Of a stretch of DNA of 50,076 bases, positions 14,400 through 33,269 are shown one piece after another. Source of the stretch: Clostridiaceae bacterium (GTDB taxonomy: Bacteria; Bacillota; Clostridia; DSM-8532); assembly GCA_012839205.1 (NCBI GenBank), contig DUNT01000068.1, forward strand, positions 1-50,076, given 5' to 3'. Position 1 is the stretch's first letter; each line of letters starts with the position of its first letter. The notes beneath the pieces are model-generated. The model saw only the letters and a program-made list of their open reading frames with translations, was not told the origin of the DNA and did no database searches. The position numbers and the translations under genes are program-made.

Positions 14400-14462
14400 T
14401 TAATGAAGAATAAAATGTTAATGTGTATTTGGGTGTCAAAAGTATAACACCTTGGGGTGCAT

Positions 14463-16619: not shown

Positions 16620-17678
16620 ATGATCAACGCGTATGGAATGCAATTGACCAGGGAAGAGCTTCTTGAAAGAGTAAGCAGCATGTCCCAGATTGCAGGAGCA
16701 CGTGTTTTTCAGTATACTGAAGGAAAAGCCTGCGGAGTGAAAGCGGTGGAAGTAAACACCGGGGATGGTCTTGTATTCACAGTGCTGCCCGATAGGGGTA
16801 TGGATATTGGTGCGGCTCGTTTCAGGAACATACCGGTATCCTGGCAAAGTAAAGTTGGTGTTGTCAGTCCTAAGTTTTTTGAAAACCAGGGTCATGAATG
16901 GTTACGGAGCTTTTATGGCGGACTGCTGGCAACATGCGGCCTAAAGCATGTAGGCGAACCGGTTCAGGACGGCAATGTATTTCATGGGTTACATGGCCGT
17001 GTGTCCAATACGCCTGCCGAGAGATTCTGGATTGATGAGTACTGGGATGGTGACGATTATGTTATTAAAGTGACCGGAAAAGTACGCGAAACGGTGATAT
17101 ATGGAGAGAATTTAGTGCTCACCCGTGAAATAAAATGCATTTATGGTCAGAATAGAATATTTGTTAAAGACTCGGTTCAAAATGAGGGATATACAGATTC
17201 TCCGTTTATGATCATGTACCACATAAATCAGACATTTCCTATCGTAAGTGAATATTCAAGGTTTTACACTTCAGCAGATAATGTAGAAGCAGCTAATGAT
17301 GCCGCTAAAGAAACAGGGGATGATTTCAGCAAAATTGATGCCCCGATAAAAGACTATCAATTCAAAACATTTATCCACAACATGCCAATGGACAGAGACA
17401 AAGTTTATCAAGCTATTATTAACGAAAACTTAGAGCTTGGCGTGTATATTGCATATAATCCAAAAACACTACCGGTTGGCAATCAGTGGAAACAGCTGGG
17501 ACAGCAGGACTACGCAGTAGCTATGGAACCGGCAAACACCTACAATGTCGGTATTGTAGAAGCAAGGAAAAACGGATGGCTCCCCGTATTAAAGCCGGGT
17601 GAAACAGCAGAGATTAATCTGGAAATCGGCGTTCTTTCAGGAGCTCAGGAAATAGAGAGTTTTAAAGCTAAGCTATAG
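16620..17678 (+). CDS. Aldose-1-epimerase-like protein (DUF4432)
   Basis: The protein has a galactose-mutarotase-like beta-sandwich layout: an early TVLPDRGMDIGAARF segment, then CGLKHVGEP, HGLHGRVSNTPAE, a central YHINQTFP and a late AMEPANTYNVG. These match the DUF4432 branch of the aldose epimerase superfamily. Histidines in HGLHGR and YHIN are plausible sugar-binding or catalytic residues. Length 352 is typical. GGAAGGGTGAG at 16604-16614 supports the start. It is followed after 17 bases by a zinc alcohol dehydrogenase and then a cyclase-family hydrolase, with one terminator after all three. An anomer interconversion feeding the dehydrogenase is inferred. The substrate is unknown. Confidence 0.85.
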   Translation: MINAYGMQLTREELLERVSSMSQIAGARVFQYTEGKACGVKAVEVNTGDGLVFTVLPDRGMDIGAARFRNIPVSWQSKVGVVSPKFFENQGHEWLRSFYGGLLATCGLKHVGEPVQDGNVFHGLHGRVSNTPAERFWIDEYWDGDDYVIKVTGKVRETVIYGENLVLTREIKCIYGQNRIFVKDSVQNEGYTDSPFMIMYHINQTFPIVSEYSRFYTSADNVEAANDAAKETGDDFSKIDAPIKDYQFKTFIHNMPMDRDKVYQAIINENLELGVYIAYNPKTLPVGNQWKQLGQQDYAVAMEPANTYNVGIVEARKNGWLPVLKPGETAEINLEIGVLSGAQEIESFKAKL

Positions 17679-17695
17679 GGAAAGGAGTAAATACT

Positions 17696-18742
17696 ATGAA
17701 AGCAATTGTGATTCATGGACCTAATGATGCAAGGTATGAAGAGGTTCCTGTAAAAAAACCACAGGATGGCGAGGTTGTTATAAAAATAAAAGCTGCCGCT
17801 CTTTGTGGTACTGACTACGAACTTTATACCAACGATATGGTTTATATCAAGGAAGGGCTGTGTAAACTGCCTATGATACCCGGGCATGAATGGTCCGGTG
17901 TTATTACAGAAGTCGGCCCCAATGTTGAAGGTTTTAAAGTGGGCGATAAAGTTTCGGGTGAATGTACTGTGAGTTGCGGCAAGTGCAGTTTTTGTAAAAA
18001 AGGCCAATACAATATGTGTATCAACCGGACAGAAACAGGTGTTTTAAGCAGGGATGGCGCGTTTGCAGAATACATTACATTCCCGGTTTCACACCTGCAT
18101 AAATTTGAAAACATATCTTTTGAAGAAGCTGCATTAATTGAACCGACCGGGATTGCACTTTATGCAGTCATGCGTTCACACATTTCTCCCCTTGATAATG
18201 TTCTTGTAATGGGACCAGGTCCCATCGGACTGCTTGCGGCACAGATAGTTAAAAAAGTTTACGGTGCGAAGCGGGTTATTCTTTCCGGCACAAGAAAAGA
18301 CCGTTTGGACAGAGCCAAGGGATATGATCTTGACGGGCTTATCAATGTACGTGAAGAAGATTTAGTTGAACGTGTACGTGAGATTACAAACGGAGAGATG
18401 ATAGACACTGTAGTTGAGACATCGGGTGGTAATTCCACGTTAGAGGATATTAAAAAGGTAATAAATCCATGTGGAAAAGTCGGAATGGTTGGCTTCTTCG
18501 GAGCAAAAAGGCCTGAATGTGACTGGGATTCATTTATTACCAGGGATATAGCCATATACGGCTCATTGGGAAGTCCAAACGTATGGGGCGATGTCATCAG
18601 CATGCTGGAGAGCGGAAAACTGGAAGTTAAGAGCATAATATCCCACATTATGGACATGAAGAGCTATGACGACTTCAAGAATGCAATGGATATGATGGTA
18701 GAAAGACGCGATAATGCTTGTAAGATTATATTAAAACCATAA
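17696..18742 (+). CDS. Zinc-dependent medium-chain alcohol/sugar dehydrogenase
   Basis: An NAD(P)-dependent dehydrogenase of the MDR family, close to sorbitol, threonine or galactitol dehydrogenases. Catalytic zinc ligands are in LCGTDYE (Cys near 38) and the GHEWSG motif. Structural zinc cysteines follow the pattern CGKCSFCKKGQYNMC. The Rossmann segment VLVMGPGPIGLLAA lies near residue 170. Length 348 is standard. The gene begins after GAAAGGAG and lies between the DUF4432 gene and the cyclase-family gene with gaps of 17 and 10 bases. It probably oxidises a sugar or polyol hydroxyl group at the start of the island pathway. Neither substrate nor position of oxidation can be read from the sequence. 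Confidence 0.92.
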   Translation: MKAIVIHGPNDARYEEVPVKKPQDGEVVIKIKAAALCGTDYELYTNDMVYIKEGLCKLPMIPGHEWSGVITEVGPNVEGFKVGDKVSGECTVSCGKCSFCKKGQYNMCINRTETGVLSRDGAFAEYITFPVSHLHKFENISFEEAALIEPTGIALYAVMRSHISPLDNVLVMGPGPIGLLAAQIVKKVYGAKRVILSGTRKDRLDRAKGYDLDGLINVREEDLVERVREITNGEMIDTVVETSGGNSTLEDIKKVINPCGKVGMVGFFGAKRPECDWDSFITRDIAIYGSLGSPNVWGDVISMLESGKLEVKSIISHIMDMKSYDDFKNAMDMMVERRDNACKIILKP

Positions 18743-18752
18743 GGAGAAAGAA

Positions 18753-19388
18753 ATGAAAAGAATCATTGATTTATCCCACGATATCTTTCATCAAATGCCT
18801 GTATTTCCTGCTGACCCTGCAGTCGGGGTATTGAAGCATCACGATTATCAAAACGGTTATTTTGTGAGCCAGGTTATTTTTGGAACACATACGGGCACTC
18901 ATATTGACGTACCGATACATAAGCTAAAGGGCGGAAAATCTATTGATGAAGTGCCGATCGATGCTTTTGTGGGTAAGGCATATGTGATGGATCTTACATC
19001 CTTAAAACCACTTGAAGAGATTGGAAGAAAACACCTTGATCCATATGCTGAAAAGCTAAAGAATATAAATGCGGTCATCATTAAAACCGGATGGGCTTCG
19101 CATTTTGGCAAAGACGATTTTTTCACTTCTTTTCCCGGTCTCAGTGAAGAAGCGGTTGACTGGTTGGCAGAGCACGAAATCAGATTAATAGCTCTTGAGA
19201 GTCCTTCAGTCAATGCAATCAAGCATGCGGAAATACATACACTGCTGTTGGAAAAAGAAATATACATTGTTGAAAGCATCGCAAATGTCGAACAAATCAA
19301 AAACGATTATGTTGAATTGTTTGCGGTACCGTTGAAACTTAAAGGCCTTGATGGTTCTCCTGTGAGAGCATTTGCTATTGAAGAATAA
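18753..19388 (+). CDS. Cyclase-family metal-dependent hydrolase (kynurenine formamidase-like)
   Basis: The N-terminal IIDLSHDI and the metal-binding motif HTGTHIDVPIHK near residue 48-59 define the cyclase family (PF04199 type). Known members hydrolyse formylkynurenine or isatin, and some act on lactone or amide bonds. The acidic ESPSVNAIKHAEIH segment completes the usual pattern. Length 211 is normal. It starts 10 bases after the dehydrogenase with AAGGAG in front. Next to a sugar dehydrogenase, opening a lactone product would be logical, but this is inference. No kynurenine pathway gene is nearby. An intrinsic terminator follows. Confidence 0.85.
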   Translation: MKRIIDLSHDIFHQMPVFPADPAVGVLKHHDYQNGYFVSQVIFGTHTGTHIDVPIHKLKGGKSIDEVPIDAFVGKAYVMDLTSLKPLEEIGRKHLDPYAEKLKNINAVIIKTGWASHFGKDDFFTSFPGLSEEAVDWLAEHEIRLIALESPSVNAIKHAEIHTLLLEKEIYIVESIANVEQIKNDYVELFAVPLKLKGLDGSPVRAFAIEE

Positions 19389-19423
19389 GGCAGTGTCACA
19401 GAGCTTGTTTTAATTGTTTACCA

Positions 19424-19457
19424 AACGAGGCTGTTTGTTTACAGACAACCTCGTTTA
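19424..19457 (+). terminator. Intrinsic terminator after the DUF4432-dehydrogenase-cyclase genes
   Basis: AAACGAGG (19424-19431) pairs with CCTCGTTT (19450-19457), with an inner CTGT/ACAG pairing, followed by a T-rich tail. It separates the three-gene unit from the permease. Confidence 0.75.
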
Positions 19458-19484
19458 TTCTTATATAAAAACAAGAGGTGAAGA

Positions 19485-20471
19485 ATGGAGAATAAAGGTC
19501 AAACGCATTCAACTGAAAGCAAAAAGATATTAAAAAAATTAAAAGTATTAGAAAATATAATACTGCTTGTTGTCTTCCTTTTCATCGCCTATTCACTGGA
19601 TAATTATTTCTTTACAATTCCCGTCATCGTTAGTGTGCTGAAGGGTACAGCTTTAATATCAGTGCTTGCAATGGCGGAGAGTATTGTATTAGCAGCAGGT
19701 GGTATAGACTTGTCAATTGCAAGCATCGGACTGTTATCTTCCAGCATCATGTTTTTCTTTGTGGAAGCCGAATTAACAGGGGTAGTACCGGCCATAATTG
19801 TCAGTATTATTGCCGGGGGATGTATTGGCCTTATTAATGGTATATTTGTGTCCAAGCTACGGATTAATCCTATTATTGTGACAATGAGTACCGCACTGTT
19901 TGCCAGAGGCGTTTCGGGATCGATATCAAACAATATTGCAATATTTAATACCAAACCGGAATTTGCGTTTTTTAAATCGGTATACTTCAGTATTATACCG
20001 GTATCGTGTATCTTCACCCTGGGTATCATGGTTTTCTGTTACTTGATATTTCGTTTTACTGTAGTGGGACGGCAGATTTTTGCCGTTGGTGGCAGTGAGG
20101 AGTCTTCCAGATTATGTGGTTTAAAAGTGGACCGGATTAAGACATTAACATATACCGTCGCAGGATTTATTGCCGGCATTGGTGGTATTTTAGTAATGTC
20201 CGATACTTTGCTGGCCACAAGGTTTTTTAGTGCCAGCGCTGATATTGAGGTGATATTGGCTGCTATTATTGGTGGTGTTTCTCTTTTCAGCCGAGCAAAT
20301 ATATTCTTTCGCGCATGTGCAGGCGCAGCAATTATAGCCATATTGAATCGTATCTTATACGGGTTGTTTGTATTTGACTATATGCGCGCAATTTTCATTG
20401 GAATTATTGCTCTGATTATAATCGCAACAAAAAACAGTATGTTTAAACACAAAAACCAGAGCAACTATTAA
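19485..20471 (+). CDS. Ribose/galactose-type ABC transporter permease (third permease)
   Basis: This is a membrane subunit of the BPD_transp_2 family (RbsC/MglC-like). The 328 residues contain about eight to ten hydrophobic helices, beginning at about residue 27. They include the typical ESIVLAAGGIDLSIASIG segment and the cytoplasmic GRQIFAVGGSEESSRLCGL loop that meets the ATPase. The start follows AGAGGTGAAG. It stands alone after a terminator and some 5 kb away from the main transporter genes, without an ATPase or receptor of its own next to it. It may partner one of the two ATPases at 25552 or 29216. Confidence 0.9.
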   Translation: MENKGQTHSTESKKILKKLKVLENIILLVVFLFIAYSLDNYFFTIPVIVSVLKGTALISVLAMAESIVLAAGGIDLSIASIGLLSSSIMFFFVEAELTGVVPAIIVSIIAGGCIGLINGIFVSKLRINPIIVTMSTALFARGVSGSISNNIAIFNTKPEFAFFKSVYFSIIPVSCIFTLGIMVFCYLIFRFTVVGRQIFAVGGSEESSRLCGLKVDRIKTLTYTVAGFIAGIGGILVMSDTLLATRFFSASADIEVILAAIIGGVSLFSRANIFFRACAGAAIIAILNRILYGLFVFDYMRAIFIGIIALIIIATKNSMFKHKNQSNY

Positions 20472-20770
20472 CCTAACCGAAATATGTCCTCCTAATACGA
20501 ATATAGACTCATTGTTTATATCAAGATTAGGAATTACAATGTAAATAATTAATAAATGTTTACTTTCTAAACTTAGCTTTTTTGTTAGTTACTACTAGTT
20601 ATGTAAAGAAGTTAGTGTATTCTTATCGCAAATAATAGGGAAGGATGTAGCAGAATTCATTTGATGATAACATCGGTACCGTGATATCATACAATTCAAG
20701 TCAACTATTCACATATTTTTAAAAAAGATTATAAACGCCAATTAAGGCGCATAAAAAAGGAGCGAATGAA
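20472..20770. other. Intergenic region before the second DapA-family gene, no gene seen
   Basis: About 300 AT-rich bases without a credible ORF. Near the end CGCCaattaaGGCG forms a small hairpin just before the AAAAGGAG ribosome binding site of the next gene. It could affect translation or be a processing site. No clear promoter was placed. Confidence 0.4.
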
Positions 20771-21667
20771 ATGAAAGAAATGAATGAAAAACTAACAGGT
20801 ATATTTGCACCAATTACCACACCATTTACAAGCGACGGCGAAGTAGACTATACCGGCCTTAAAAAGAACATGGAATTTTACGCAAAGTCTGGTATTAAAG
20901 GATATTTAGCACTGGGCTCCAACGGAGAGAACAAATCATTGACCAATGAAGAGAAACTCAAAGTTTTAAAGACAATAATTGACAACAAGGGCGAAGATCA
21001 AATCGTCATGGGTGGATGTATATTTGAGTCGACATATGAAACGATAGAGTTTGCAAAAAAATTCGAGGAACTTGGTGTTGATTTTATTACATTGCTCCCT
21101 CCTTCTTATTTTAAAAAGCAAATGACTGAACCTGTACTGGTTAAATACTTTAATGATGTAGCAAATGCGGTTGACACACCTTGCCTTTTATACAATGCAC
21201 CACAGTTTTGTGGTGGTACCACGCTTTCTGTAAATTTGGTTGCAGAATGTGCAAAAAATCCAAAAATTGTAGGTATTAAAGACTCCTCTACAGGTAACAT
21301 AGAAAACTTCCTATTCGGCTTGAGAGATAAAATAAGCGTCATGGCAGGATCTGCCAACTTCTTTATGAGGACTGTAATTATGGGCGGAAGTGGTGGAATA
21401 GTATCACTTGCCAACATTTTCCCCGGAATTGTTTGTGAGCTTTACCAGTTAATTCTTGACAAGAAATATGAAGAGGCTTTTGCGCTTAATGATAAGGTTT
21501 TACGCCTCAACAAAGGAGTATCAGGCGCAGGTGGTGTAGCTGCAGTTAAATACGCAATGGATCTTGCCGGCCTAAAGGGCGGAGACCCAAGACTACCCTT
21601 ATTACCATTACCTCAGGATAAGCGTGATAAAGTGAAAAAACTGCTTGAAGAAAATGGCATGATATAA
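20771..21667 (+). CDS. DapA-family aldolase/dehydratase (copy 2 of island)
   Basis: A paralog of the protein at 11675, with the same modified loop GSNGE, Schiff-base K170 in VGIKDSS and Y141 in LYNAPQFCGG. As in copy 1, the DapA arginine is missing, so this is probably a 2-keto-3-deoxy acid aldolase, dehydratase or relative rather than dihydrodipicolinate synthase. Length is 298. AAAAGGAG lies 8 bases before the start. It opens a tight run of genes with a 2-hydroxyacid dehydrogenase, KDG-kinase-like protein, MocA-type oxidoreductase and AllA-like protein. Having two such enzymes in one island suggests two different keto-acid steps, or one aldolase and one dehydratase. Confidence 0.88.
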   Translation: MKEMNEKLTGIFAPITTPFTSDGEVDYTGLKKNMEFYAKSGIKGYLALGSNGENKSLTNEEKLKVLKTIIDNKGEDQIVMGGCIFESTYETIEFAKKFEELGVDFITLLPPSYFKKQMTEPVLVKYFNDVANAVDTPCLLYNAPQFCGGTTLSVNLVAECAKNPKIVGIKDSSTGNIENFLFGLRDKISVMAGSANFFMRTVIMGGSGGIVSLANIFPGIVCELYQLILDKKYEEAFALNDKVLRLNKGVSGAGGVAAVKYAMDLAGLKGGDPRLPLLPLPQDKRDKVKKLLEENGMI

Positions 21668-21697
21668 ATAGAAATAAGCTGTACGTGGGGTTTTGAG

Positions 21698-22651
21698 ATG
21701 AGAAAAATAATATTGACTAAGAAATTAAATGAAAAGAATTACCAACTGTTACAGGATATAAATGATATTGAAACAGTATACGTACTTGACGGAAATGAAG
21801 AGGCGTTTAATGAACATATAAAGGATGCTGAAGCAATATTGTTGAGTACGGCATACAAGATGACAAGAGAAGTTATTGATAATGCTAAAAACTTAAAAGT
21901 TATCAGCAGGACCGGAGCAGGTGTAGACAATGTAGACGTTGAAGCGGCTTCAGAAAAAGGTATTTTGGTACTCAATACGCCTACTGCCAATTCTATATCG
22001 GTGGCTGAACATACTATTACCCTTATTTTAGCTATTACAAAGCAGATTATTATGTATGACAGTAATCTTAGGGACGGGAACTTTAAAATACGCCGTAGTG
22101 GAAAAACACGCGATATAGACGGTAAGACATTGGGACTTATCGGATGTGGCAGAATTGGTCAGTTTGTGGCAAATAAATGTAAAGCTGCATTTGGTATGGA
22201 AGTCATAGGATACGACCCATATATTAAAGAATTGCCGGGTATTCTGATATACGAAGATATTGAAGAAGTATTTAAACGAGCAGACTACATATCATTGCAC
22301 CTGCCGCTGACTTCAGAAACAAAGAATTTAGTCGGAGAAAGATTACTTGGGCTCATGAAACCGACGTCATATCTTGTTAATACAGCGCGGGGAGGAATCG
22401 TAGATGAATACGCACTGGCTGAAAAGCTTAAAAACGAAGAAATTGCCGGTGCAGCACTTGATGTATTTGAAACCGAACCTCCTGGCATGGACAATCCTCT
22501 ATTACAACTGAAAAACGTGATACTGACGCCGCATTCTGCAGCTTTGAGTAAAGAGTGTTCTGATAGGGTAGCATATGAGGCGACATTGGGTATAGCTGAT
22601 TACTTAAAAGGTAATACACCAAAATTTATAGTCAACAAGAGTATTTTATAG
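21698..22651 (+). CDS. D-isomer-specific 2-hydroxyacid dehydrogenase
   Basis: An NAD-dependent reductase of the SerA/glyoxylate-reductase family. The Rossmann fingerprint LGLIGCGRIGQF lies near residue 148. The catalytic Arg, Glu and His are in NTARGGIVDE, FETEPPG and LTPHSAAL. Length 317 is typical for hydroxypyruvate, glyoxylate or lactate-type enzymes and too short for a SerA with an ACT domain. It sits 30 bases after the DapA paralog and 18 bases before the kinase gene. In this setting it may reduce a 2-oxo acid or aldehyde-acid fragment released by the aldolase, or oxidise the reverse. Substrate not readable. Confidence 0.9.
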   Translation: MRKIILTKKLNEKNYQLLQDINDIETVYVLDGNEEAFNEHIKDAEAILLSTAYKMTREVIDNAKNLKVISRTGAGVDNVDVEAASEKGILVLNTPTANSISVAEHTITLILAITKQIIMYDSNLRDGNFKIRRSGKTRDIDGKTLGLIGCGRIGQFVANKCKAAFGMEVIGYDPYIKELPGILIYEDIEEVFKRADYISLHLPLTSETKNLVGERLLGLMKPTSYLVNTARGGIVDEYALAEKLKNEEIAGAALDVFETEPPGMDNPLLQLKNVILTPHSAALSKECSDRVAYEATLGIADYLKGNTPKFIVNKSIL

Positions 22652-22669
22652 AGATTAGGAGGAAACAAA

Positions 22670-23728
22670 GTGGCTAAAAAATTTGATTTAGTAGGTTTTG
22701 GGGAGGCAATGGTACGTTTTAATTCTCCCGAGCATGTGAGACTCGAACAAGCTCAGTATATGAATCTTGCGATTGCAGCAGCAGAGTTAAACGTTTGTGT
22801 AAACACTTCAACACTTGGGCTGAAAACTAAATGGGTGTCAAAACTGGTTGATACCTGGTCTGGTAAATATGTGGTTAATAAAGGACGAGAGCATAATGTA
22901 AATATGGATGATGTCATTCTTGAACCTTATGACGGTTCGGGAAGAAAGGCGCGTAACGGATTGTGCTTTATCGAAGTCGGTATTGGGCCTCGTGCATCCA
23001 GACAGATTTATGATAGAGGCAATAGTGCGATTTCGCAGATACAACCCGGAGAAATTGACTGGAAGGAAATCTTTTCGGATGCTGGTTGGTTCCATACGAC
23101 TGGTATTACATGTGCAATTTCACCAGAAGCAGCAAATGAAGCGATACGTTCATTAAAAATAGCAAAAGAATGTGGATTGACAACAAGCTTTGACTTAAAC
23201 TACAGATCAACACTTTGGTCACCGGAAGAAGCTCAGGCAGTTATGGAAAAAGCCATGCCATACATTGATGTTTTGATTGGAAATGAAGAAGATTTTGAAA
23301 CTATGCTTGGTATTAAGGCAGAAGGCACCACAAAAACGTATTCAAAACTTGATCCTATGAATTATAAAAATGTTGCCAAAATGGTTTGTGATAAGTATCC
23401 AAATGTGAAAACAGTTGGTACAACACTCCGTGAAGTAAAAACCGCACTTCTGAACGACTGGAGAACAGTTGCATACCACAATGGTGAATTCTATGTATCC
23501 AAAAAGTACGAGAATCTTGAGATATACGACAGAACAGGCGGCGGCGACAGTTTTGCATCGGGTATAATATATTCCCTTATAAGTGGTGAGTACAAGGGAC
23601 AAGACATGATTGAGTTTGCAGCAGCGTACAGTGCATTATGCCATGGCTTTATGGGAGACTGGAACTGGGCATATAAAGAAGAGGCAGAGAGCTTAATGAA
23701 GGGTGGAAGTGCAAGAGTTAAGCGTTAA
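22670..23728 (+). CDS. PfkB-family sugar kinase, 2-keto-3-deoxygluconate kinase-like
   Basis: Ribokinase-fold kinase. The ATP/anion hole is DRTGGGDSF near residue 290 (the usual DTxGAGD with R in place of the second residue's neighbour and G for A). Sugar-acid kinases of the KdgK type share the SFDLNYRSTLW and late GDWN elements seen here. The N-terminal GGA-x-N-A motif of many PfkB proteins is replaced by YMNLAIAAAELN. Length 352 is slightly long. The start codon is GTG at 22670 with TAGGAGG before it. Phosphorylation of a 2-keto-3-deoxy sugar acid before aldol cleavage is the best inference. Confidence 0.87.
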   Translation: MAKKFDLVGFGEAMVRFNSPEHVRLEQAQYMNLAIAAAELNVCVNTSTLGLKTKWVSKLVDTWSGKYVVNKGREHNVNMDDVILEPYDGSGRKARNGLCFIEVGIGPRASRQIYDRGNSAISQIQPGEIDWKEIFSDAGWFHTTGITCAISPEAANEAIRSLKIAKECGLTTSFDLNYRSTLWSPEEAQAVMEKAMPYIDVLIGNEEDFETMLGIKAEGTTKTYSKLDPMNYKNVAKMVCDKYPNVKTVGTTLREVKTALLNDWRTVAYHNGEFYVSKKYENLEIYDRTGGGDSFASGIIYSLISGEYKGQDMIEFAAAYSALCHGFMGDWNWAYKEEAESLMKGGSARVKR

Positions 23729-23799
23729 ATTGAAGACAATTTAAGGTGCCTGTATGAATTGCGATAAATAAAAAATAAATGAAAGTGGTGATTTGATTA

Positions 23800-24951
23800 A
23801 TGAAGAAAATCAATGTTGCGCTTGTTGGTCATAAGTTTATGGGACGTACGCATACACATGCAATAACAGACGCTCCAATATTCTTTGACTTGGGTGTGGA
23901 GATTAACAAAAAAATAATCTGTGCGAATGAAGATTCAGTTTTTGATGTAGCCAAGAGATGGGGATGGGAAAAAGCTGTTCTTGATTGGAGAGAGATTATT
24001 GAGGACAAAGAAATCGATTCTGTCAGTATTGCTGCACCCAGTAAGGTTCATGCAGAAATAGCTATTGCTGCGGCTAAAGCAGGGAAGCATGTATTCTGCG
24101 AAAAACCATTGGCACTGGATATGGAAGATGCAGAGGCCATGGTGAAAGCAGTAGAAGAAGCAGGCGTTGTTAACATGGTTGGATTTAATTTCCGTAGAGT
24201 TCCTGCATTGTGCCTTGCAAAACAACTGATTGAAGAAGGTGTGCTGGGAGAGTTGTACCATTTCAGGGCAATCTGGTCACAGGATTGGCTGACTGACCCC
24301 AAATTCCCAATTGCATGGCGTTTAAAAAAGGCCTTGGCTGGTTATGGAACACACGGAGATTTAGGCGCTCATCTTATTGATATTGCACGTTTTCTGGTTG
24401 GTGACATAGACGAAGTATGCTGTGTGCAGAAAACATTTAACAAAATGCGTCCTGTGGCGGTATTTGAGGATGGTTTATATGCCGAAGCCGGAGAAGATAT
24501 GGCAGAAGTTGATGTTGACGATGCGTCACAGATGCTCGCAACATTTAAAGACAAGAACATGATGGCATATTTCGAGAGCACCAGAAATGGTACAGGTCAT
24601 AAGAACCAGAACCGCATCGAAGTTGCCGGAAGCAAAGGTGCGATTATCTGGGACGAAGAGAAACTTAACGAGCTCGAATACTACAACGATGGAGATCCTG
24701 CACATGTGAGAGGTTTCAGGAGAGTAATGGTAGGAGAGGCTATACATCCGTATATGGCCAATTGGTTCCCGGTAGGGCATATTATTGGATACGGTGATAC
24801 ATTTGTCAATGAGTATTACGATTACTTTACCGCAATTAAAAATGGCGAAGGAGTAACACCTAATTTCAGAGACGGTTTAATGGTGCAAAAAGTACTGGAT
24901 GCAGCAGAGCAATCAGCAATCGAAAGAAAGTGGAAGAAAGTCCAGTATTAA
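23800..24951 (+). CDS. Gfo/Idh/MocA-family oxidoreductase
   Basis: NAD(P)-dependent sugar oxidoreductase. The N-terminal nucleotide-binding strand VALVGHKFMGRTH has GH in place of the common GxGxxG spacing. The family hallmark EKPLALD (101-107, with K102) is intact. The later GTHGDLGAHLIDIARFLVG provides the expected histidines. Length 383 is normal. AAGTGG precedes the start at modest strength. Family members oxidise inositols, levoglucosan, glycosides and many sugars. Here it follows the kinase gene and precedes the AllA-like gene by 21 bases. It offers a second oxidation chemistry in the island beside the zinc dehydrogenase. Confidence 0.92.
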   Translation: MKKINVALVGHKFMGRTHTHAITDAPIFFDLGVEINKKIICANEDSVFDVAKRWGWEKAVLDWREIIEDKEIDSVSIAAPSKVHAEIAIAAAKAGKHVFCEKPLALDMEDAEAMVKAVEEAGVVNMVGFNFRRVPALCLAKQLIEEGVLGELYHFRAIWSQDWLTDPKFPIAWRLKKALAGYGTHGDLGAHLIDIARFLVGDIDEVCCVQKTFNKMRPVAVFEDGLYAEAGEDMAEVDVDDASQMLATFKDKNMMAYFESTRNGTGHKNQNRIEVAGSKGAIIWDEEKLNELEYYNDGDPAHVRGFRRVMVGEAIHPYMANWFPVGHIIGYGDTFVNEYYDYFTAIKNGEGVTPNFRDGLMVQKVLDAAEQSAIERKWKKVQY

Positions 24952-24972
24952 GAATAGGAGTTGAATTCTGTT

Positions 24973-25458
24973 ATGAAAACATTAGTGACAAAGCGCCTGA
25001 CACCAGAAAATGTTGAGATGTTCGGAAAAGCTATAAAAGTTGATGACACATTGACTTTAAATGCTGGTGAACATAAATACGTCGGTCAGCTTGCTATTCT
25101 TTCCTGTGAAGATTCATTGCAGGTTGGCATACACTCTGCTGGAAACCAAGGTTTTGTTGTCAGTCAACTCGAACAGCATGCGGATACACCAGAACTTCTT
25201 GCAGCACTGAAAGGTGATTTTATAGTACCTGTCACAAATTCAATTGAAGTTGAAGGCAAACAGGTTCCGGATATGGCAAACATTAGTGCTATCCGGGTTA
25301 ATCAAGGCGAGGGTATCGTATTTGAAAAGGGAGTTTGGCATTGGTCGCCCTATCCTGCTGGAGATTACTGTGATGTACTGGTTATCTTCAAGAAAGATAC
25401 ACCGGACAATGATTTCATCTCATTTAAGCTGGAAGAAGAAATTAGAATAATACCATAA
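24973..25458 (+). CDS. Ureidoglycolate-lyase-like (AllA-fold) protein
   Basis: A small cytoplasmic beta-barrel protein of 161 residues. The GEGIVFEKGVWHWSPYP segment near the C-terminus resembles the conserved metal/substrate motif of AllA, and the LEQHADTPELL segment resembles the central region. True AllA cleaves ureidoglycolate in allantoin degradation, but no allantoin gene is present. The sugar-acid setting makes another lyase or dehydratase reaction more likely. The ATG at 24973 is taken. AGGAG lies 12 bases upstream, a rather long distance, and a TTG at 24961 directly abuts that site. The function is an open question. Confidence 0.7.
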   Translation: MKTLVTKRLTPENVEMFGKAIKVDDTLTLNAGEHKYVGQLAILSCEDSLQVGIHSAGNQGFVVSQLEQHADTPELLAALKGDFIVPVTNSIEVEGKQVPDMANISAIRVNQGEGIVFEKGVWHWSPYPAGDYCDVLVIFKKDTPDNDFISFKLEEEIRIIP

Positions 25459-25551
25459 ACTGGCTTGCTGTAAAATTATGCTTGTTGCGACATTTTCCCT
25501 CGAATCGCAGATTTACTTAGTTAACTGCTTGAAAACACAGTGGAGGAAATC
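25459..25551. other. Gap containing one copy of a 12-base repeat before the ATPase gene
   Basis: TTGTTGCGACAT at 25482-25493 recurs exactly at 27053-27064, before the permease gene at 27107. Each copy is 54-70 bases before a start codon. It may be an operator or coincidence. Confidence 0.3.
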
Positions 25552-27042
25552 ATGAGAAAGGAAATTCTGCGTTTAGAGAACATTTGCAAAACAATAGATG
25601 GCGTAAAAGTATTGAAGAATGTATCTCTTAATCTATACGAGGGAGAAACAGTAAAACTGTATGGTGATGAGGGGAGATCCCTTTCATCGATTGTAGGTTT
25701 GTTTGGTGGTGTCATTAAACCCGATTCTGGCAGAATCTATATCGATGGTAAGGAAATAAAATTGGCCAGTCCTCTCGACGGGAAAAAGGCGGAAATTAGT
25801 ATTATTCATAAAAAGAGCGACTTGATCCCAAACCTGACAGTGATGGAAAATCTGTTTTTAGAAAGGAAGAACTATGCCAGAGGGTTGTTCTTAAAAGAAA
25901 AAAAACAGCGAGCCAGAGCGGTGGAACTTTTAGAGATTTTAGGACTAGATATTTCACCGGATATGATGGCAAGTGATCTGAAATTAGAGCAGATGCAAAT
26001 CGTTCAACTCGGAAAGGCGCTGCTTGACGATCGGAAAATTATAATAATGGATCATACTCATATCCTTTTGGACAAGGAACAGATTAAACTTTTTGAAGGA
26101 GTTTTTAATGAACTGGCAAAAAGAAATGTAGGTATACTGATTCTTGCTCAAAACTTAAGGGATTTTACTTCGGTTTCAGACCGGATGTACATTATGAAAG
26201 AAGGTAGTATAATTGGTAATCTAATGACATCCGAAATGGAAAAAGATAAGATAATTCAGATGATTGCCAAGGACTATTATTCGGAAAAGAGTGGGATTTA
26301 TTTAAATCAAACATCAGAAGAGGTACTTCGTGTTGAAGGTCTGTCAACAAAGAATATGTTGAGAAATGTGAGCTTCTCACTGAATAAAGGTGAGATTGTA
26401 AGTATAACAGGATCATACGGGTCAGGGAAATACGAAGTGGGATATGCGCTTTATGGCATGGAAAGAACTTTAGGTGGTAAAATTTATCTTCATAACAAAC
26501 GAATTAAGATTAAAAATCCCTCAGATGCAATAAAGCGAAAAATTGTATTATTATCATTTGAGAAAAAAGAAAACGGATTACTCTATAATTTGAGTGCAAA
26601 AGAGAATATAACCATATCCCGATTGGGTAATATCAGTAATTTCGCCATCATCCGAAAGGAACTGGAGAATTGGTTGATTAAAACGGTATATAATGATCTT
26701 TCACTTAATATTGAAGATGACAACATAGCAATCGAAGGCCTCTCTCTGGTGAATCAGAGAAAAGTCAGCCTCGCAAGGGCAATTAGTTGTAATCCTGATG
26801 TTTTGATACTTATTGATCCTACAAAAGGACTTGAGAATGAAAGCAAAAAACAGATACTTGAACTGCTCGTATCATTTTCTGACAGAGGTATTGCAATATT
26901 ACTGATTTCATCCAACCTGCACGAGATTTTGCAGGTGTCGCATAGAGTATGGTTATTCAGTAATGGTACAATTACAGGTTGTATTGATAGAGATATGATA
27001 GAATCCAGAGAGCAGATGAATATATTGAGTAGTTTTATTTAA
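25552..27042 (+). CDS. Degenerate double-domain ABC ATPase of sugar-importer type (pseudoenzyme)
   Basis: The 496-residue protein aligns along its length with RbsA/MglA-type ATPases, but its working motifs are lost. In the first half, Walker A is GDEGRSLSS (38-46, no lysine), the Q-loop is HKK (86-88), the signature is LKLEQ (143-147), Walker B ends MDH (D167, H168 replaces glutamate) and the H-loop position is Q200. In the second half, Walker A is GSYGSGKYE, the signature LSLVNQ, and DEPT has become IDPT. The frame is intact and the start has GGAGG at 25542-25546, so this is not simple decay. A canonical ATPase is encoded at 29216. A regulatory or structural role in a mixed ATPase complex is inferred. 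Confidence 0.85.
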   Translation: MRKEILRLENICKTIDGVKVLKNVSLNLYEGETVKLYGDEGRSLSSIVGLFGGVIKPDSGRIYIDGKEIKLASPLDGKKAEISIIHKKSDLIPNLTVMENLFLERKNYARGLFLKEKKQRARAVELLEILGLDISPDMMASDLKLEQMQIVQLGKALLDDRKIIIMDHTHILLDKEQIKLFEGVFNELAKRNVGILILAQNLRDFTSVSDRMYIMKEGSIIGNLMTSEMEKDKIIQMIAKDYYSEKSGIYLNQTSEEVLRVEGLSTKNMLRNVSFSLNKGEIVSITGSYGSGKYEVGYALYGMERTLGGKIYLHNKRIKIKNPSDAIKRKIVLLSFEKKENGLLYNLSAKENITISRLGNISNFAIIRKELENWLIKTVYNDLSLNIEDDNIAIEGLSLVNQRKVSLARAISCNPDVLILIDPTKGLENESKKQILELLVSFSDRGIAILLISSNLHEILQVSHRVWLFSNGTITGCIDRDMIESREQMNILSSFI

Positions 27043-27106
27043 AAACAACTATTTGTTGCGACATAGCAGCAGGGTAAAGAATTTTTAGTGAAAAGAGGTT
27101 TTACCA

Positions 27107-28222
27107 GTGATTAAGAAAGGATTAGTGAATTTTGTCAAAAATGATTTGGCAAGTATATCCGTAGTTCTTATCGTGCTTTTGACTTTTGTTATAACAAAGT
27201 CGAATCCGAGCCGGTTGTCGTTCACGATGGTATCGTTATCAAAAGACATTGCAATATTTACAATTGTTGGAATGGCTCAGATGGCGACGCTTGCCGTTGG
27301 ACAATTTAATCTTGCCGTTGGTGCCATGGGGGGCGTAGCCGGGATGGTATGTGGTTATCTTATCAACATTCCTTATGAAGGTTCTATGAATGTTGATACC
27401 TATGCTCAGGCTGAAATCGGGCTTGCGCTACCTTGGTACGTTGGTGTTATTGCCGCTTTAATTATTGGATTTATTGTGGGGGCCATTCAAGGAGGAATGA
27501 TTGTAAAGACAAAAATTAATCCTTTTATCATTACCCTGGCACTGATTAGTGTTCTTCACGGCCTTAACATGGCTGTAACCAGAAATATCTATTTTAGAAA
27601 TCTGCCAGAAGTTTTTAAAGCAATTAATAAGAACACCATTCCAGCGACAACAACACCTGATGGAGGTCAGGCGACAACATACGGAGTGCCTGTCATGTTT
27701 ATAGTTACATTAGTTGTTATGGTAGTCGTTTGGATGTTATACAACAGAACGATTCTCGGCAGAAAGATGCTTGCAACAGGTGTAAATACAAGAGCAGCAG
27801 ATTTTGCAGGAATCAATTCTGGCAGGTACATAACACTCGCCCATGGCATCAGTGGAATGCTATGTGCATTAGCAGGTGTACTGACAGTATCCAAACTTGG
27901 TGCAGCTCAAACCTCCATTGGAGACAACTGGATGTTATATTCATTTGCATCGGCAATCCTTGGGGGCACTTTATTAAATGGTGGTAAAGTATCTATCTTC
28001 GGCACCATGATTGGCGCCGGGATAATGATGGTTGTAAATACCGTGCTGACATTATTAAAAATAAGCGCTTTTTCCCATCAAATATTCATCGGAGCCCTTC
28101 TATTAATTGCGTTTATGCTCAATAAAGGTAGAGAAGCGCTTATTAGACAACAAGAAAGGGCCGCAGTAAAAGTGCAAGACGATGTACAAAGTGGAGGTAG
28201 CAAGAATGAAGAATTCGCTTAA
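27107..28222 (+). CDS. Sugar ABC transporter permease 1
   Basis: BPD_transp_2 family membrane subunit of 371 residues with about ten hydrophobic segments. It carries GMAQMATLAVGQFNLAVGAMGG in the core and the ATPase-contacting loop GRKMLATGVNTRAADFAGI. A longer periplasmic loop rich in polar residues (about 80-105) and a charged C-terminal tail set it apart from the next permease. The start is GTG 27107 with AGAGG eight bases upstream. The next permease gene overlaps its end by 17 bases, so the two are translationally coupled and probably form a heterodimeric channel. Confidence 0.93.
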   Translation: MIKKGLVNFVKNDLASISVVLIVLLTFVITKSNPSRLSFTMVSLSKDIAIFTIVGMAQMATLAVGQFNLAVGAMGGVAGMVCGYLINIPYEGSMNVDTYAQAEIGLALPWYVGVIAALIIGFIVGAIQGGMIVKTKINPFIITLALISVLHGLNMAVTRNIYFRNLPEVFKAINKNTIPATTTPDGGQATTYGVPVMFIVTLVVMVVVWMLYNRTILGRKMLATGVNTRAADFAGINSGRYITLAHGISGMLCALAGVLTVSKLGAAQTSIGDNWMLYSFASAILGGTLLNGGKVSIFGTMIGAGIMMVVNTVLTLLKISAFSHQIFIGALLLIAFMLNKGREALIRQQERAAVKVQDDVQSGGSKNEEFA

Positions 28223-29219
28223 AAAACAAGGCGCTGCCGAAAGAAATCAACAAATTTCTAATACAATTGGAATTCTTATAGTAATTATAATTTTATCTGT
28301 GTTCGTTTGGACAAAAAGCAGTAATTTCTTCTCCCGGGATAATATCATCACCTTAGCCAGGATGTGCAGCGTGACAATTCTTGTAGGGTATGCCCAGATG
28401 GTTGTTATCGCAGGCGGAGGACTAAATGTATCCATAGGTGCCATCGGCGGTATGTCTGCGGTAATTGTCGGTGCACTGATTAAAAGGGCAGGCGTCCCAT
28501 GGGGATATGCAATTATAATTGCAATACTGATTGGTGCAGTATGTGGTGCCTTTAATGGTATTTTAATAACACGGCTTGGTGCGACAGGAGAAATTTCTTG
28601 GTTGGTAACACTTGCTACAATGAGTATATTTACAGGAATCTCACTGACTATAACCAAAGCAAACCCGTTCTACAACCTTCCCAAAGGATATGTATGGATT
28701 GGCGCACATAATGTCTTTGGCTGGATTCCGGTTATGATTATTATAGCGGTTGTAGTATCGGTATTATTGTGGTATCTGTTTAAATATGCAAGTTTTGGCA
28801 GACAAATACTTGCGGTAGGTTCCAATCAAAGAGCAGCAGAGCTTTCAGGTGTAGACGTTGGCAGGGTTATGATTTTTAAACACATTTTTTCTGCAGTGAT
28901 TGCGGCGGTTGCCGGTATTCTGTTCAGCACAAGGCTGGGGTCCATTGGTTCTGATATTGGTGGAGACTGGATGCTATTCTCCTTTGCTGCTCCGTTAATC
29001 GGTGGCACAAGAATGGCAGGAGGTCGTGTAAACGTTGCTGGTGCATTTCTTGGCGGACTATTATTGACGATTGTTTCCAACGGTGTTGTGCACTTGCAGG
29101 TTAACGTATATATTGTCGAACTTTTGGAAGGCATTATAATATTGCTTGCGGTGGGTCTTGATAGGATCAGAGAAATGAGAGAGGAGCGCCGTGAGAGATT
29201 GGAGCGTGCTGCGATATGA
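28206..29219 (+). CDS. Sugar ABC transporter permease 2
   Basis: Second BPD_transp_2 permease, 337 residues. It has the core segment GYAQMVVIAGGGLNVSIGAIGG and the coupling loop GRQILAVGSNQRAAELSGVDVG. It is recognisably related to permease 1 but clearly different in sequence. The ATG at 28206 is chosen over 28182 because GTGGAGG lies at 28191-28197. It overlaps permease 1 at the front and shares an ATGA overlap with the canonical ATPase gene at its end, which indicates a coupled operon. Confidence 0.93.
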   Translation: MKNSLKKQGAAERNQQISNTIGILIVIIILSVFVWTKSSNFFSRDNIITLARMCSVTILVGYAQMVVIAGGGLNVSIGAIGGMSAVIVGALIKRAGVPWGYAIIIAILIGAVCGAFNGILITRLGATGEISWLVTLATMSIFTGISLTITKANPFYNLPKGYVWIGAHNVFGWIPVMIIIAVVVSVLLWYLFKYASFGRQILAVGSNQRAAELSGVDVGRVMIFKHIFSAVIAAVAGILFSTRLGSIGSDIGGDWMLFSFAAPLIGGTRMAGGRVNVAGAFLGGLLLTIVSNGVVHLQVNVYIVELLEGIIILLAVGLDRIREMREERRERLERAAI

Positions 29220-30742
29220 GAGGCGATACAATTCTTGAATTAAAAAATGTAACAAAGGTTTTTCCAGGCGTAGTTGCATTAGACAATGTAGACTTTACCC
29301 TGAAAGAAGGGGAAATACATGCGCTAATGGGTGAGAATGGTGCCGGAAAGAGCACACTAATTAAGATAATCACAGGTGTTCACTGTCAAACTAAAGGTAA
29401 GATGTTTGTGAACGGTGAAGAAGTAATATTTAATAGCCCAATGGATGCGTTCGCAGCAGGAATAAATGTTGTGCATCAGGAAAGAAACCTTTTTCCTACA
29501 TTTACAGTAGCAGAAAACATTATGATTGAACATTACAGCAATAAATTAATAGGAAAAGTCGATCAAAATGTTATTAATAAGGAAGCCCAAAAATATATCG
29601 ATTTGGTTGGTCTGGATGTTCCTCCTACAAAGAATGTAGAAGCACTAAGTGCAGGGCAGAAGCAGTTAATAGAGATTGCAAAAGCACTTTCTTCAGATGC
29701 CAAGATTATACTTCTTGATGAGCCAACGGCGTCAATTTCAGTAAATGAGGCAAATATGCTCATAAAACTTATTAAAAAGCTGCGTGACGAGGGACTGACC
29801 TTCATATTTGTTTCACATAAAATTGAAGAAATTTTTGAAGTTGCAGATATGGTCACTGTACTACGAGATGGTAAAAATGCGGTTGACACCAATACCGGTG
29901 AAATATCTACACCTATAGAAAAGATAACAAGAAATGAGCTTATTAACAGAATGGTAGGCAGAACCGAGGAGTTTGAATCTCTTGAAATAAGAGACTTCTC
30001 TGATGCTGAGGTAGTGTTGGAAGCAAAAGGACTTAGAAGTACAGATTCGCCAAAGCCAAAATCTTTCTACCTGAAAAAAGGTGAGCTTTTAGGGTGGTAC
30101 GGTTTAGTTGGAGCTGGGCGTACAGAATTTGCCCGGACGCTTATTGGTTACGACCCTGCCATTGAGGGAGAGCAGATTATAAATGGCGAAAAGGTGAAGA
30201 TAACCAGTATTGCTCAAGCACAGCATAAATATAAACTTACCTATTTGAGCGAGAATCGAAAAGAGGAAGGACTTTTCCTGGACCACGATGTTAAAGTCAA
30301 CCTGACCTCAACGATTTTTGATAAAATCAAAGGTCTGTTCGGGTTTGTTAAACTAAAAGAAGAGCAGGAGATTGCTGAGAAATATAAGAATGAATTGCAG
30401 GTTAAAACTCCCAGCTTAAAACAGCATGTTAGAAACTTAAGTGGTGGAAATCAGCAGAAAGTAAGCCTTGGTAAAGGACTTGCCGTACAGCCTGACATTC
30501 TGATTATTGACGAACCCACAGTTGGTATTGATATCAAGACTAAGAGTGAAATACATAGGTTGATGCACGATTTGACCAAAGAAAACAAATCAGTGATATG
30601 TATAACATCAGATATGGCTGAAATGATTCAGATTGCTGACAGAATCCTTGTTTTTAAGGATGGAGAAATTGTAGGTGAACTTATAAACACAAAATCTTAT
30701 GATGAAATGAGTAAAAAGATCATGAGCATGATCATGAACTAA
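29216..30742 (+). CDS. Sugar ABC transporter ATP-binding protein (canonical RbsA/MglA type)
   Basis: Double-domain ATPase of 508 residues that powers import. The first domain is fully intact: Walker A GENGAGKST (39-47), Q-loop VVHQE, signature LSAGQ (144-148), Walker B ILLDEPTAS and H-loop VSHK. The second domain has the usual family variant GLVGAGRTE with signature LSGGNQQK and IIDEPTVGID. The family normally shows this asymmetry. Translation couples to permease 2 through ATGA. The receptor gene follows. It is the likely energy source for both permeases and possibly the permease at 19485. Confidence 0.95.
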   Translation: MRGDTILELKNVTKVFPGVVALDNVDFTLKEGEIHALMGENGAGKSTLIKIITGVHCQTKGKMFVNGEEVIFNSPMDAFAAGINVVHQERNLFPTFTVAENIMIEHYSNKLIGKVDQNVINKEAQKYIDLVGLDVPPTKNVEALSAGQKQLIEIAKALSSDAKIILLDEPTASISVNEANMLIKLIKKLRDEGLTFIFVSHKIEEIFEVADMVTVLRDGKNAVDTNTGEISTPIEKITRNELINRMVGRTEEFESLEIRDFSDAEVVLEAKGLRSTDSPKPKSFYLKKGELLGWYGLVGAGRTEFARTLIGYDPAIEGEQIINGEKVKITSIAQAQHKYKLTYLSENRKEEGLFLDHDVKVNLTSTIFDKIKGLFGFVKLKEEQEIAEKYKNELQVKTPSLKQHVRNLSGGNQQKVSLGKGLAVQPDILIIDEPTVGIDIKTKSEIHRLMHDLTKENKSVICITSDMAEMIQIADRILVFKDGEIVGELINTKSYDEMSKKIMSMIMN

Positions 30743-30756
30743 GCCTTTTAATTTGT

Positions 30757-30773
30757 TTAAGCTAAATGCTTAA
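30757..30773 (+). promoter_or_regulatory. Small hairpin between ATPase and receptor genes
   Basis: TTAAGC (30757-30762) and GCTTAA (30768-30773) form a 6-base stem with a 5-base loop. In such operons a hairpin here can protect or process the abundant receptor mRNA. That role is inferred from position. Confidence 0.35.
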
Positions 30774-30810
30774 TATAAAAAATCAAAAAGGAAAGAGAGG
30801 AAGAAAAAGA

Positions 30811-31932
30811 ATGAAGAGAGTTTTAGCACTCGTACTGGCAGTATGTATGCTGGTGGTATTCTTACCAGCATGTGGTTCTTCTACACCACAACCTGCTCCA
30901 GAAACACCGAAAGCACAAACCGCAGAAGATCTTGGTGTGGATTTGAGCAAAGAAGTCGTAGGCGGCCAAAAAGAGGGCGCAGAGTACAACTTTGCCATCG
31001 TTTACGGAGGTGTCCACCCGTTCTTTGATCCATGGCTATTTGGTGCACAACAAGCAGCTTTGGACCTTGGTATCCCGATTCCTATCGTAACAAGTCCTCA
31101 GAACTGGGATCAAACCGAACAGAATGTCATCATTGACGGTCTTGTTGCCGGTGGTATCAATGGTATCGGTATGTTCCCTTCAGACGCAGTTGCTGGTAAT
31201 GAAAAGATTAGCGAACTGGTTGGAATGGGAATCGACGTTGTTACCTTGGGAGGATCTCCTGCTACTCCTTCAGACGCAACATTCTGCTATGCTACTGACG
31301 TTGGTGCATCTGTTGCATTTGCAACTCAGGCTATCATCGACGAGCTGAAAGCACAGGGCAAAACTGAAGGAAAACTTCTGCACCTTTGCTCTTCATTAGC
31401 TGACACCAATACTCAGAAGAGACAGGCTGCTATTAATGAAGTATTGGCTAAGCCTGAAAATGCTGGTTTTGTCCTTGAATGGGAATTGGCAGACACAGAC
31501 GCTACAGAGCCTGCTGAAGAAGCAATCTCTGCAATGTATGCATCTTACATCGACCAGGTTGACGGTATCGTTTGTACAGGCTATGTAAACGCACAAGTTC
31601 TTGGTAAGACAATGAACGAAAGAGGAACAAATGACGGTGTTGTAGCAATTGGTATCGACGACAGTGCAGACGTTCTCGCCGCTATTGATAATGGCTATAT
31701 GAAGGGAACAATGACACAGAGCGCTTGGGCTATGGGTTATGTTGGAATATATGCTCTGAAGCTGTTAGCTGATGGCTACACCATCAAGCCTGATGCTCCA
31801 TTCTTCATTGACTCCGGCTATTTCCTCCTCACACAAGAGGGACTGCCTGCTTACGCAGAATCTCAACAGAAGATGGCTTATGACTTCGTGTCAACCATGG
31901 CCGACAAATACTTCAATCCTCCGGCAAATTAA
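30811..31932 (+). CDS. Sugar-binding lipoprotein receptor 1 of the ABC transporter
   Basis: A type I periplasmic-binding-fold receptor (Peripla_BP_4 group), 373 residues. The first 20 residues are a lipoprotein signal with lipobox LPAC and modified C21, so it is anchored outside the membrane. Conserved stretches include FAIVYGGVHPFF, MFPSDAVAGNE, TLGGSPATPSD, DTNTQKRQAA and GIDDSADVL. The ATG at 30811 is chosen over 30766 because it begins the signal peptide and GAGAGGAAG precedes it. Many codons end in C (ATC, GAC, TTC), unlike neighbouring genes, which suggests selection for high expression. It is followed by a terminator and then a close paralog at 32157. Confidence 0.95.
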   Translation: MKRVLALVLAVCMLVVFLPACGSSTPQPAPETPKAQTAEDLGVDLSKEVVGGQKEGAEYNFAIVYGGVHPFFDPWLFGAQQAALDLGIPIPIVTSPQNWDQTEQNVIIDGLVAGGINGIGMFPSDAVAGNEKISELVGMGIDVVTLGGSPATPSDATFCYATDVGASVAFATQAIIDELKAQGKTEGKLLHLCSSLADTNTQKRQAAINEVLAKPENAGFVLEWELADTDATEPAEEAISAMYASYIDQVDGIVCTGYVNAQVLGKTMNERGTNDGVVAIGIDDSADVLAAIDNGYMKGTMTQSAWAMGYVGIYALKLLADGYTIKPDAPFFIDSGYFLLTQEGLPAYAESQQKMAYDFVSTMADKYFNPPAN

Positions 31933-32017
31933 TTATTAAACAGAATTTATACCCGAGAGGGAAAAAAGAGGTTAACACTATCCGGCTAGTCTAATAGTGT
32001 CAACCCGCACAACAAGT

Positions 32018-32054
32018 GCCCCAATAGTTTATTATACTGTTGGGGCTGCTTTTA
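32018..32054 (+). terminator. Intrinsic terminator between the two receptor genes
   Basis: GCCCCAATAGT (32018-32028) pairs with ACTGTTGGGGC (32036-32046) through one G-T pair, followed by TGCTTTTATT. It ends the main transporter transcript. Confidence 0.85.
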
Positions 32055-32074
32055 TTAAATAACATCTGCAAAAC

Positions 32075-32103
32075 TATGTCAAGGGACTTTTTTGATGTAT
32101 AAT
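32075..32103 (+). promoter_or_regulatory. Probable promoter for receptor 2
   Basis: A perfect -10 TATAAT (32098-32103) lies 53 bases before the receptor 2 start. The -35 (TATGTC at 32075-32080) is poor, so activation by a regulator is possible. Confidence 0.45.
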
Positions 32104-32156
32104 TAATATAGTGATTGTTTGTTACACCGTATCCATAATTGATTGGAGAATACAAT

Positions 32157-33269
32157 ATGAAAAAAGTGTTATCTATATTATTAATAATTGTAATAATGGC
32201 TACGTATGCAGGTTGCCAGCTGTTTGATAGTAATAGAAAAAATTTAGAATATGATGGTATAGTAATTGGTCCCAATAAAAATGCGATGGTGGAAGATTCG
32301 GGATATATCGCCGATCCCGCATATTATCAGTTTGCAATTGTTTACGGAGGAGAGCACCCCTATTTTATGCCATATGAACCGGGTGCAAAGGCAGCGGCAG
32401 AGGACCTCGGTATCGTAGACCCTTATATCGTGTCCCCGCAGGCATGGGATCAGGTAGAGCAGAATAAGGTGCTTGATGAAGTAATTGCCAAGGGAGCAGT
32501 AGGTATTGCAATGTTTCCGTCAAATGCAGATGCAGGAAATGAACAGATTACAAAAATGGTTAATAATAATATACCTGTTGTTACACTCGGTGGTTCCCCG
32601 TCTGAACCTTCCGATGCAGTTTTTTGTTTTGCCACCGATGTCGGCGCTTCCGTGGCGTTGGGAACACAAAAATTGATTGATAAGTTAAAAGAGAATGGAT
32701 TAACGCAAGGTAATATTGTACATCTATGCAGCGCCCTGGGCGATACAAACACGCAAAAAAGACAGGCTGCGATTACTGAAGTTCTGGCAAGACCGGAAAA
32801 CGAAGGGTTTGTTTTATATAAGGAACTTGCCGATACCGATGTGATTGAGCACGCTGAGAGGGAAATAAGTATAATGTATGCCTCTTATATCGATGAAGTG
32901 GACGGCATAATCTGCACCGGGTATGTGAATGCACAAGTGCTTGCGAAAACTATGATGGCTGTGGATGAAACCCGGGTCGTAGCTATCGGGATTGATGATT
33001 CAAAAGAAGTACTTGATGCAATTGATGCAGGGGTTATGTACGGTACTATGACGCAAAACCCTTGGGGTATGGGATATGTGGGTGTTTATGCACTAAAGCT
33101 CCTCCAAGACGGATATACTTATAAGAAAGAAAAAGGTTTTTTTATTGATTCCGGATATTATTTACTAACTAAGGAAGGACTGCCAACATACCAAGAAACA
33201 ATTGAGGCCAAAACCAAAGAATTTGTATCTACTATGAAGGAAAAATATTTTAATCCCCCAGCTCAATAA
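32157..33269 (+). CDS. Sugar-binding lipoprotein receptor 2 (tandem paralog)
   Basis: A receptor of 370 residues, very like receptor 1 over its whole length. Shared blocks include FAIVYGGEHPYF, MFPSNADAGNE, TLGGSPSEPSD, DTNTQKRQAA and a C-terminal KYFNPPAQ. The signal peptide ends in lipobox YAGC with C20. The ATG at 32157 is used because TTGGAGA precedes it. Unlike receptor 1 it uses AT-ending codons like the rest of the window, and it is a separate transcription unit with its own -10 and terminator. It may bind a related ligand, or serve as a sensor for the YesM kinase. Both ideas are inference. Confidence 0.95.
   Translation: MKKVLSILLIIVIMATYAGCQLFDSNRKNLEYDGIVIGPNKNAMVEDSGYIADPAYYQFAIVYGGEHPYFMPYEPGAKAAAEDLGIVDPYIVSPQAWDQVEQNKVLDEVIAKGAVGIAMFPSNADAGNEQITKMVNNNIPVVTLGGSPSEPSDAVFCFATDVGASVALGTQKLIDKLKENGLTQGNIVHLCSALGDTNTQKRQAAITEVLARPENEGFVLYKELADTDVIEHAEREISIMYASYIDEVDGIICTGYVNAQVLAKTMMAVDETRVVAIGIDDSKEVLDAIDAGVMYGTMTQNPWGMGYVGVYALKLLQDGYTYKKEKGFFIDSGYYLLTKEGLPTYQETIEAKTKEFVSTMKEKYFNPPAQ

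Follow-up and report, generated by a model that had tools for sequence, protein, structure and literature searches.

A catalytically degenerate RbsA-type double ATPase beside an intact sugar importer in a Clostridiaceae bacterium

How does a full-length importer ATPase stripped of its catalytic residues come to stand beside an active one of the same type, and is it kept for something or merely left over? RbsA-type importers are thought to use one active and one degenerate ATP site, and a full-length RbsA with neither, encoded next to an active counterpart, sets the docking function of such an ATPase apart from its function as a power source. The gene in question occupies positions 25552-27042 (+ strand) of the window, i.e. 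the whole stretch of 50,076 nucleotides analysed, which is an entire contig of a 2.3-Mb genome; its product, a pseudo-ATPase of 496 aa, is referred to here by its first position, as 25552. We give about an even chance to the reading that 25552 is a maintained pseudo-ATPase, one that would partner an RbsC-type permease without hydrolysing ATP and would report or gate sugar occupancy.

Fold and nucleotide sites of 25552

As the preliminary description had stated, the gene is intact: the frame of 496 codons holds no premature stop, and a ribosome binding site (GGAGG, 25542-25546, + strand) precedes the ATG, which lies 5 nt downstream. The protein matches PF00005 twice and, over its full length, the RbsA, AraG and XylG profiles (the best being NF008030, residues 4-484 of 496, 299 bits), and its predicted structure comprises two complete ABC domains (mean pLDDT 78.5, pTM 0.57, from an alignment of only 6 sequences). 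On these profile matches it belongs to the RbsA-type importer ATPases as a homologous fold family, with two fused ABC domains. Searches of solved structures and fold searches returned generic ABC proteins only. Its two-domain architecture, full-length homology and gene position adjoining RbsC-type permeases are common to RbsA (NF008030), AraG, XylG, MglA and NupO. The score lies below the curated equivalog cut-off of NF008030 (299 vs 745 bits), which alone says little because the active neighbouring ATPase, 29216, falls short as well; with a score under the cut-off and no complete catalytic site, 25552 does not appear to be a functional RbsA equivalog.

For the motif comparison, 66 canonical paralogues served as reference, mostly from the source genome and related genomes. 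In the first domain (all positions + strand), Walker A reads GDEGRSLSS instead of GENGAGKST (25663-25689; K44L, G43S), the Q-loop HKK (Q87K, codon at 25810-25812), the signature DLKLEQMQ and Walker B IIIMDH, ending in DH for DE (residues 167-168, 26050-26055; E168H, D167 retained); the H-loop histidine is replaced by glutamine (residue 200, 26149-26151), and the A-loop aromatic is lost too (F15I). In the second domain, the signature is LSLVNQR for canonical LSGGNQQ (residues 397-403, 26740-26760, + strand; G399L, G400V) and Walker B is LILIDPT for LILDEPT, with ID for DE at residues 421-422 (26812-26817, + strand; D421I, E422D). These are the substitutions that had been claimed for domain 1 (GDEGRSLSS, HKK, LKLEQ, MDH, Q200) and for the DEPT and LSGGQ motifs of domain 2, and the comparison agrees with them throughout. 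Besides D167, the protein has kept S45, S398 and the glycines of the second Walker A. Counted over the conserved nucleotide-site columns, 25552 retains 15 of 36, as against at least 86% (median 100%) in the 66 canonical paralogues, and five out of five catalytic-site elements are substituted (Walker A, Q-loop, Walker B glutamate and H-loop of domain 1, LSGG of domain 2), all of which are intact in 66/66 canonical paralogues checked.

In ABC dimers of the RbsA type, the site that remains is made up of the domain-1 motifs and the LSGG of domain 2. Known members keep canonical motifs in this one site, the other of the two being degenerate already in canonical RbsA (PMC11466899); the key loss in 25552 is therefore that of the composite site (NBD1 motifs with NBD2 LSGG), which is destroyed on both faces, so that the normally intact site is gone as well. 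Judged from these residues, 25552 is almost certainly unable to hydrolyse ATP. Catalytic residues have likewise been lost from an ATP site in degenerate-site ABC transporters such as the heterodimeric exporter TM287/288, yet there the partner site stays active, whereas 25552 has lost both sites within one protein. The non-canonical ATP site of such transporters has been described (PMC5216877).

The second Walker A of 25552, GSYGSGKYE, carries a lysine (K293) at the position of the canonical RbsA arginine. This residue would suit a nucleotide sensor in which domain 2 still binds ATP; such a role is very unlikely all the same, given the two replacements in the second Walker B, an opposing domain-1 signature that reads LKLEQ, and an H-loop position in domain 2 that is serine, as throughout the RbsA-type family.

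Decay or maintenance of the frame

The preliminary description had proposed a search for orthologs, either with the same substitutions or, in close relatives, with intact motifs; the search was run, and neither kind was found in 32 genomes of the family and 391 of the class by protein searches, nor any ortholog by peptide patterns in genomes of the species. Peptide patterns in viral contigs and a protein search in plasmids likewise gave no ortholog of 25552. No match in any of these searches exceeded 35% identity, and the matches examined, the closest (L037) included, carry canonical motifs. An ortholog may exist elsewhere, as the peptide-pattern search detects close relatives only.

Occurrence in a single species is one of the points that speak for a decaying gene, i.e. 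for 25552 as the former RbsA of a lost ribose-type importer, with the permease encoded at 19485-20471 as a second relic that is still open. Both proteins sit on very long branches, and 25552 has lost conserved columns outside its active site too. Against this, we simulated neutral drift of a canonical gene, free of selection, until 21 of the 36 site residues had changed (400 runs; substitutions only, indels would worsen the outcome). The loss cost about 0.41 substitutions per site and brought in a mean of 16 premature stops, with a minimum of 4 in the 400 runs, where the real gene has 0. By this simulation, passive decay with an open frame is very unlikely. The intact ribosome binding site, a normal codon usage (r 0.80 vs other window genes) and the intact predicted fold also argue against decay, and we regard the relic scenario as a whole as unlikely. 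A loss confined selectively to the active site was considered and set aside as weakly supported: nucleotide-site columns were kept in 15/36 cases vs 32/57 for other conserved columns (p 0.21), and in 14/35 vs 27/41 at a 90% threshold (p 0.04).

The simplest reading is that the frame was maintained during or after the loss of catalysis; decay may have begun recently. Maintenance, as had been proposed at the outset, is thus favoured by the stop-free frame measured against the simulation, by codon usage, by the predicted fold and by the separate pseudo-RbsA family under purifying selection described below.

Pseudo-RbsA proteins that form a distinct, conserved family

Three RbsA proteins more degenerate than 25552 were found in the source genus, a fourth by search and nine more by their profile. 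This pseudo-RbsA family occurs in 13 of 391 class genomes, spread over six genera and five families; a 14th class match of the profile (G085) has a score typical of a canonical paralogue and was left out of the count. The loci include L114:8996-10471, L115:7672-9141, L117:6807-8279, L133:8894-10492, L135:9430-10944, L137:9310-10824, L139:9302-10855 and L141:9066-10484. Walker A, Walker B, signature and H-loop motifs are lost in the family and the frames are intact. Close pairs have dN/dS values of 0.07-0.18; for comparison, one pair of active RbsA proteins from the same operons gives 0.06. A conserved family under purifying selection means that maintained pseudo-RbsA subunits do exist.

Gene order is constant in 12/13 genomes, where the pseudo-RbsA comes immediately behind a response regulator of AraC type and a histidine kinase of 334-368 aa; downstream of it, where contigs allow, genes for an active RbsA, permease and binding protein usually follow. 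In the kinases of these operons, two hydrophobic segments lie side by side and leave almost nothing outside the cell. Two kinases seen near other RbsA operons were complete or nearly so; they measure ~600 aa, with ~240 residues between their membrane segments. In G009, the pseudo-RbsA (L116:8115-9569) lies away from the operon, beside unrelated genes, and the short-type kinase stays with the importer (L052:134-6606). It is natural to infer from this arrangement that the pseudo-RbsA of this family would couple the importer to a sensorless kinase, and its members are probably regulatory couplers; this suggests that dead RbsA-type engines are retained for a controlling function and not as a power source. 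A comparable logic is known from BceAB-BceRS, where an ABC transporter signals to a kinase that has no extracellular sensing domain (PMC7828314). Unlike the pseudo-RbsA operons, however, BceAB is an antibiotic-resistance transporter, with BceA as an active ATPase and no dead ATPase subunit. Literature searches, in which most subscription journals were not covered, returned no description of a conserved pseudo-RbsA family. The family could be tested by genetics as a concrete example of a dead transporter ATPase that may supply the sensor link which a sensorless kinase is missing; this kinase-linked, conserved set of dead RbsA proteins strengthens the interpretation of 25552 and is the more interesting part of the result. 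As a separate observation, two genomes hold tandem RbsA pairs (L065:1429-2955, L073:1026-2615) where the second domain of one copy is unusual (GSGRRTL, VTGIGT) and its first domain intact.

On the other hand, 25552 was rejected as a member of this family. On the family profile it reaches 199.7 bits, where members score 613-789 and canonical RbsA up to 253, and its gene does not directly follow a response regulator and a short histidine kinase. The window does encode a two-component system (12813-16286, + strand), composed of an AraC-type response regulator (12813-14399) and a histidine kinase (14457-16286), yet this is a long-type kinase whose membrane segments are separated by a large segment, and the pair lies ~9 kb upstream of 25552. 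Given the score and the kinase type, the family serves as a precedent for a maintained pseudo-RbsA and not as an annotation of 25552, which is, by profile score, a lineage distinct from it. The thirteen proteins (P0002, P0003, P0004 and ten others) resemble 25552 in being derived from RbsA, in having lost the nucleotide motifs with frames intact, and in their association with an active RbsA importer; they differ in spanning six genera and in their linkage to a response regulator plus a kinase that lacks an extracellular sensor, whereas 25552 is found in one genome.

These data also bear on whether 25552 might be a signalling adaptor that links an importer to the two-component system of its own cluster, as proposed for the pseudo-RbsA family. 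The position of the family members directly behind regulator and kinase, the lack of an extracellular sensor in those kinases, and the fact that the regulator and kinase of the window belong to the same protein families lend this idea some appeal. It nonetheless seems improbable for a protein that falls so clearly outside the family by score, with a kinase that has its own large segment between the membrane segments and is encoded 9 kb away. Between the two-component system and 25552 (16620-25458) there is a catabolic set of sugar-acid type, with epimerase-like, Zn dehydrogenase, cyclase, DapA-like, 2-hydroxyacid dehydrogenase, KDG-kinase-like, levoglucosan-dehydrogenase-like and ureidoglycolate-lyase-like genes.

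Origin, partner and possible role of 25552

Directly downstream of 25552, on the same + strand and after a gap of 64 nt, begins an intact importer. Profiles and trees identify its permease 1 (27107-28222) and permease 2 (28182-29219, which may in fact start downstream of 28182), and profiles together with the motif comparison its active RbsA-type ATPase (29216-30742), in which every canonical motif is present, in keeping with the active first domain it had been credited with. This one importer is followed by two tandem genes (30766-33269) for sugar-binding proteins 1 (30766-31932) and 2 (32139-33269), assigned by profiles and 58% identical to each other; all of these genes are on the + strand. 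Among the relatives searched for orthologs of the operon permeases and ATPase, none close was found, and the nearest were rhizobial.

This neighbourhood would suit a direct modulation of uptake, in which 25552 replaces 29216 on 27107/28182 and thereby limits or tunes transport, with the permease 19485 unrelated. Besides the adjacency, the pseudo-RbsA family, too, usually precedes an active RbsA and a permease, and 25552 is not rejected as a sister of 29216 (p-AU 0.23). The trees point elsewhere, though. In the RbsA tree, 25552 forms the longest end branch and groups not with 29216 but with the RbsA of ribose operons (SH-aLRT 99), in which a LacI-type regulator and ribokinase-like genes adjoin RbsA. 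The kin of 29216 are rhizobial, and both permeases, 27107 and 28182, cluster with that rhizobial system too (support 100). We therefore consider direct modulation of this importer to be a poor bet. An origin of 25552 as a recent duplicate of 29216 was likewise disfavoured, at ~25% identity and with the two proteins grouping apart, short of a formal rejection (the same p-AU).

A different candidate partner is the orphan RbsC-type permease at 19485-20471 (+ strand; profiles, conserved columns, tree), which has no ATPase of its own. As divergent as 25552, it forms the longest branch of the permease tree and, with 31/55 conserved columns kept, ranks in the bottom three of 74 permeases (median 84%); the cytoplasmic coupling loop is kept and the GG-G-GT segment lost. 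The best tree found joins 19485 to the RbsC of the same ribose operons, with a log-likelihood 7.1 above that of the free search (p-AU 0.69), although this pairing with 25552 rests on long branches and the p-AU marks it as compatible, not as proof. As 25552 goes with the RbsA and 19485 with the RbsC of the same operons, the two may be what is left, altered together, of a single ribose-type importer. This weakly favours 19485, rather than the adjacent 27107/28182 pair, as the original partner of 25552.

We thus return to 25552 as likely a non-hydrolysing docking or regulatory subunit. In such a scheme, the protein would have kept its two-domain fold, lost ATP hydrolysis and been retained by selection. 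It would dock on the cytoplasmic coupling loops of an RbsC-type permease, most likely the orphan 19485, with which it has perhaps co-descended from one ribose-type importer, and would report or gate sugar occupancy as a receptor or regulator that does not itself drive transport; uptake via 27107/28182 would be powered by 29216. A regulatory subunit that docks on one permease, as suggested in the preliminary description, is accordingly the best-supported reading, the part concerning the permease being only weakly indicated, for 19485, by the nearest canonical relatives and its orphan status. Our literature searches (most subscription journals not covered) found no description matching a pseudo-ATPase of the 25552 type.

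A broader and more tentative proposal, which we hold to be possible though somewhat doubtful, is that Clostridia have made the fused ribose-type importer ATPase, independently and at least two times, into an ATP-independent reporter of importer state: once towards a sensorless histidine kinase, in the conserved operon type, and once as 25552 with the altered permease 19485, which together would form a transporter-derived receptor.

Finally, the element TTGTTGCGACAT, an imperfect palindrome, has exactly 2 copies genome-wide, one on each side of the 25552 gene: copy 1 at 25482-25493 and copy 2 at 27053-27064, between this gene and permease 1 (both + strand). By sequence and position, the pair may represent operators, or else the trace of an insertion or duplication.
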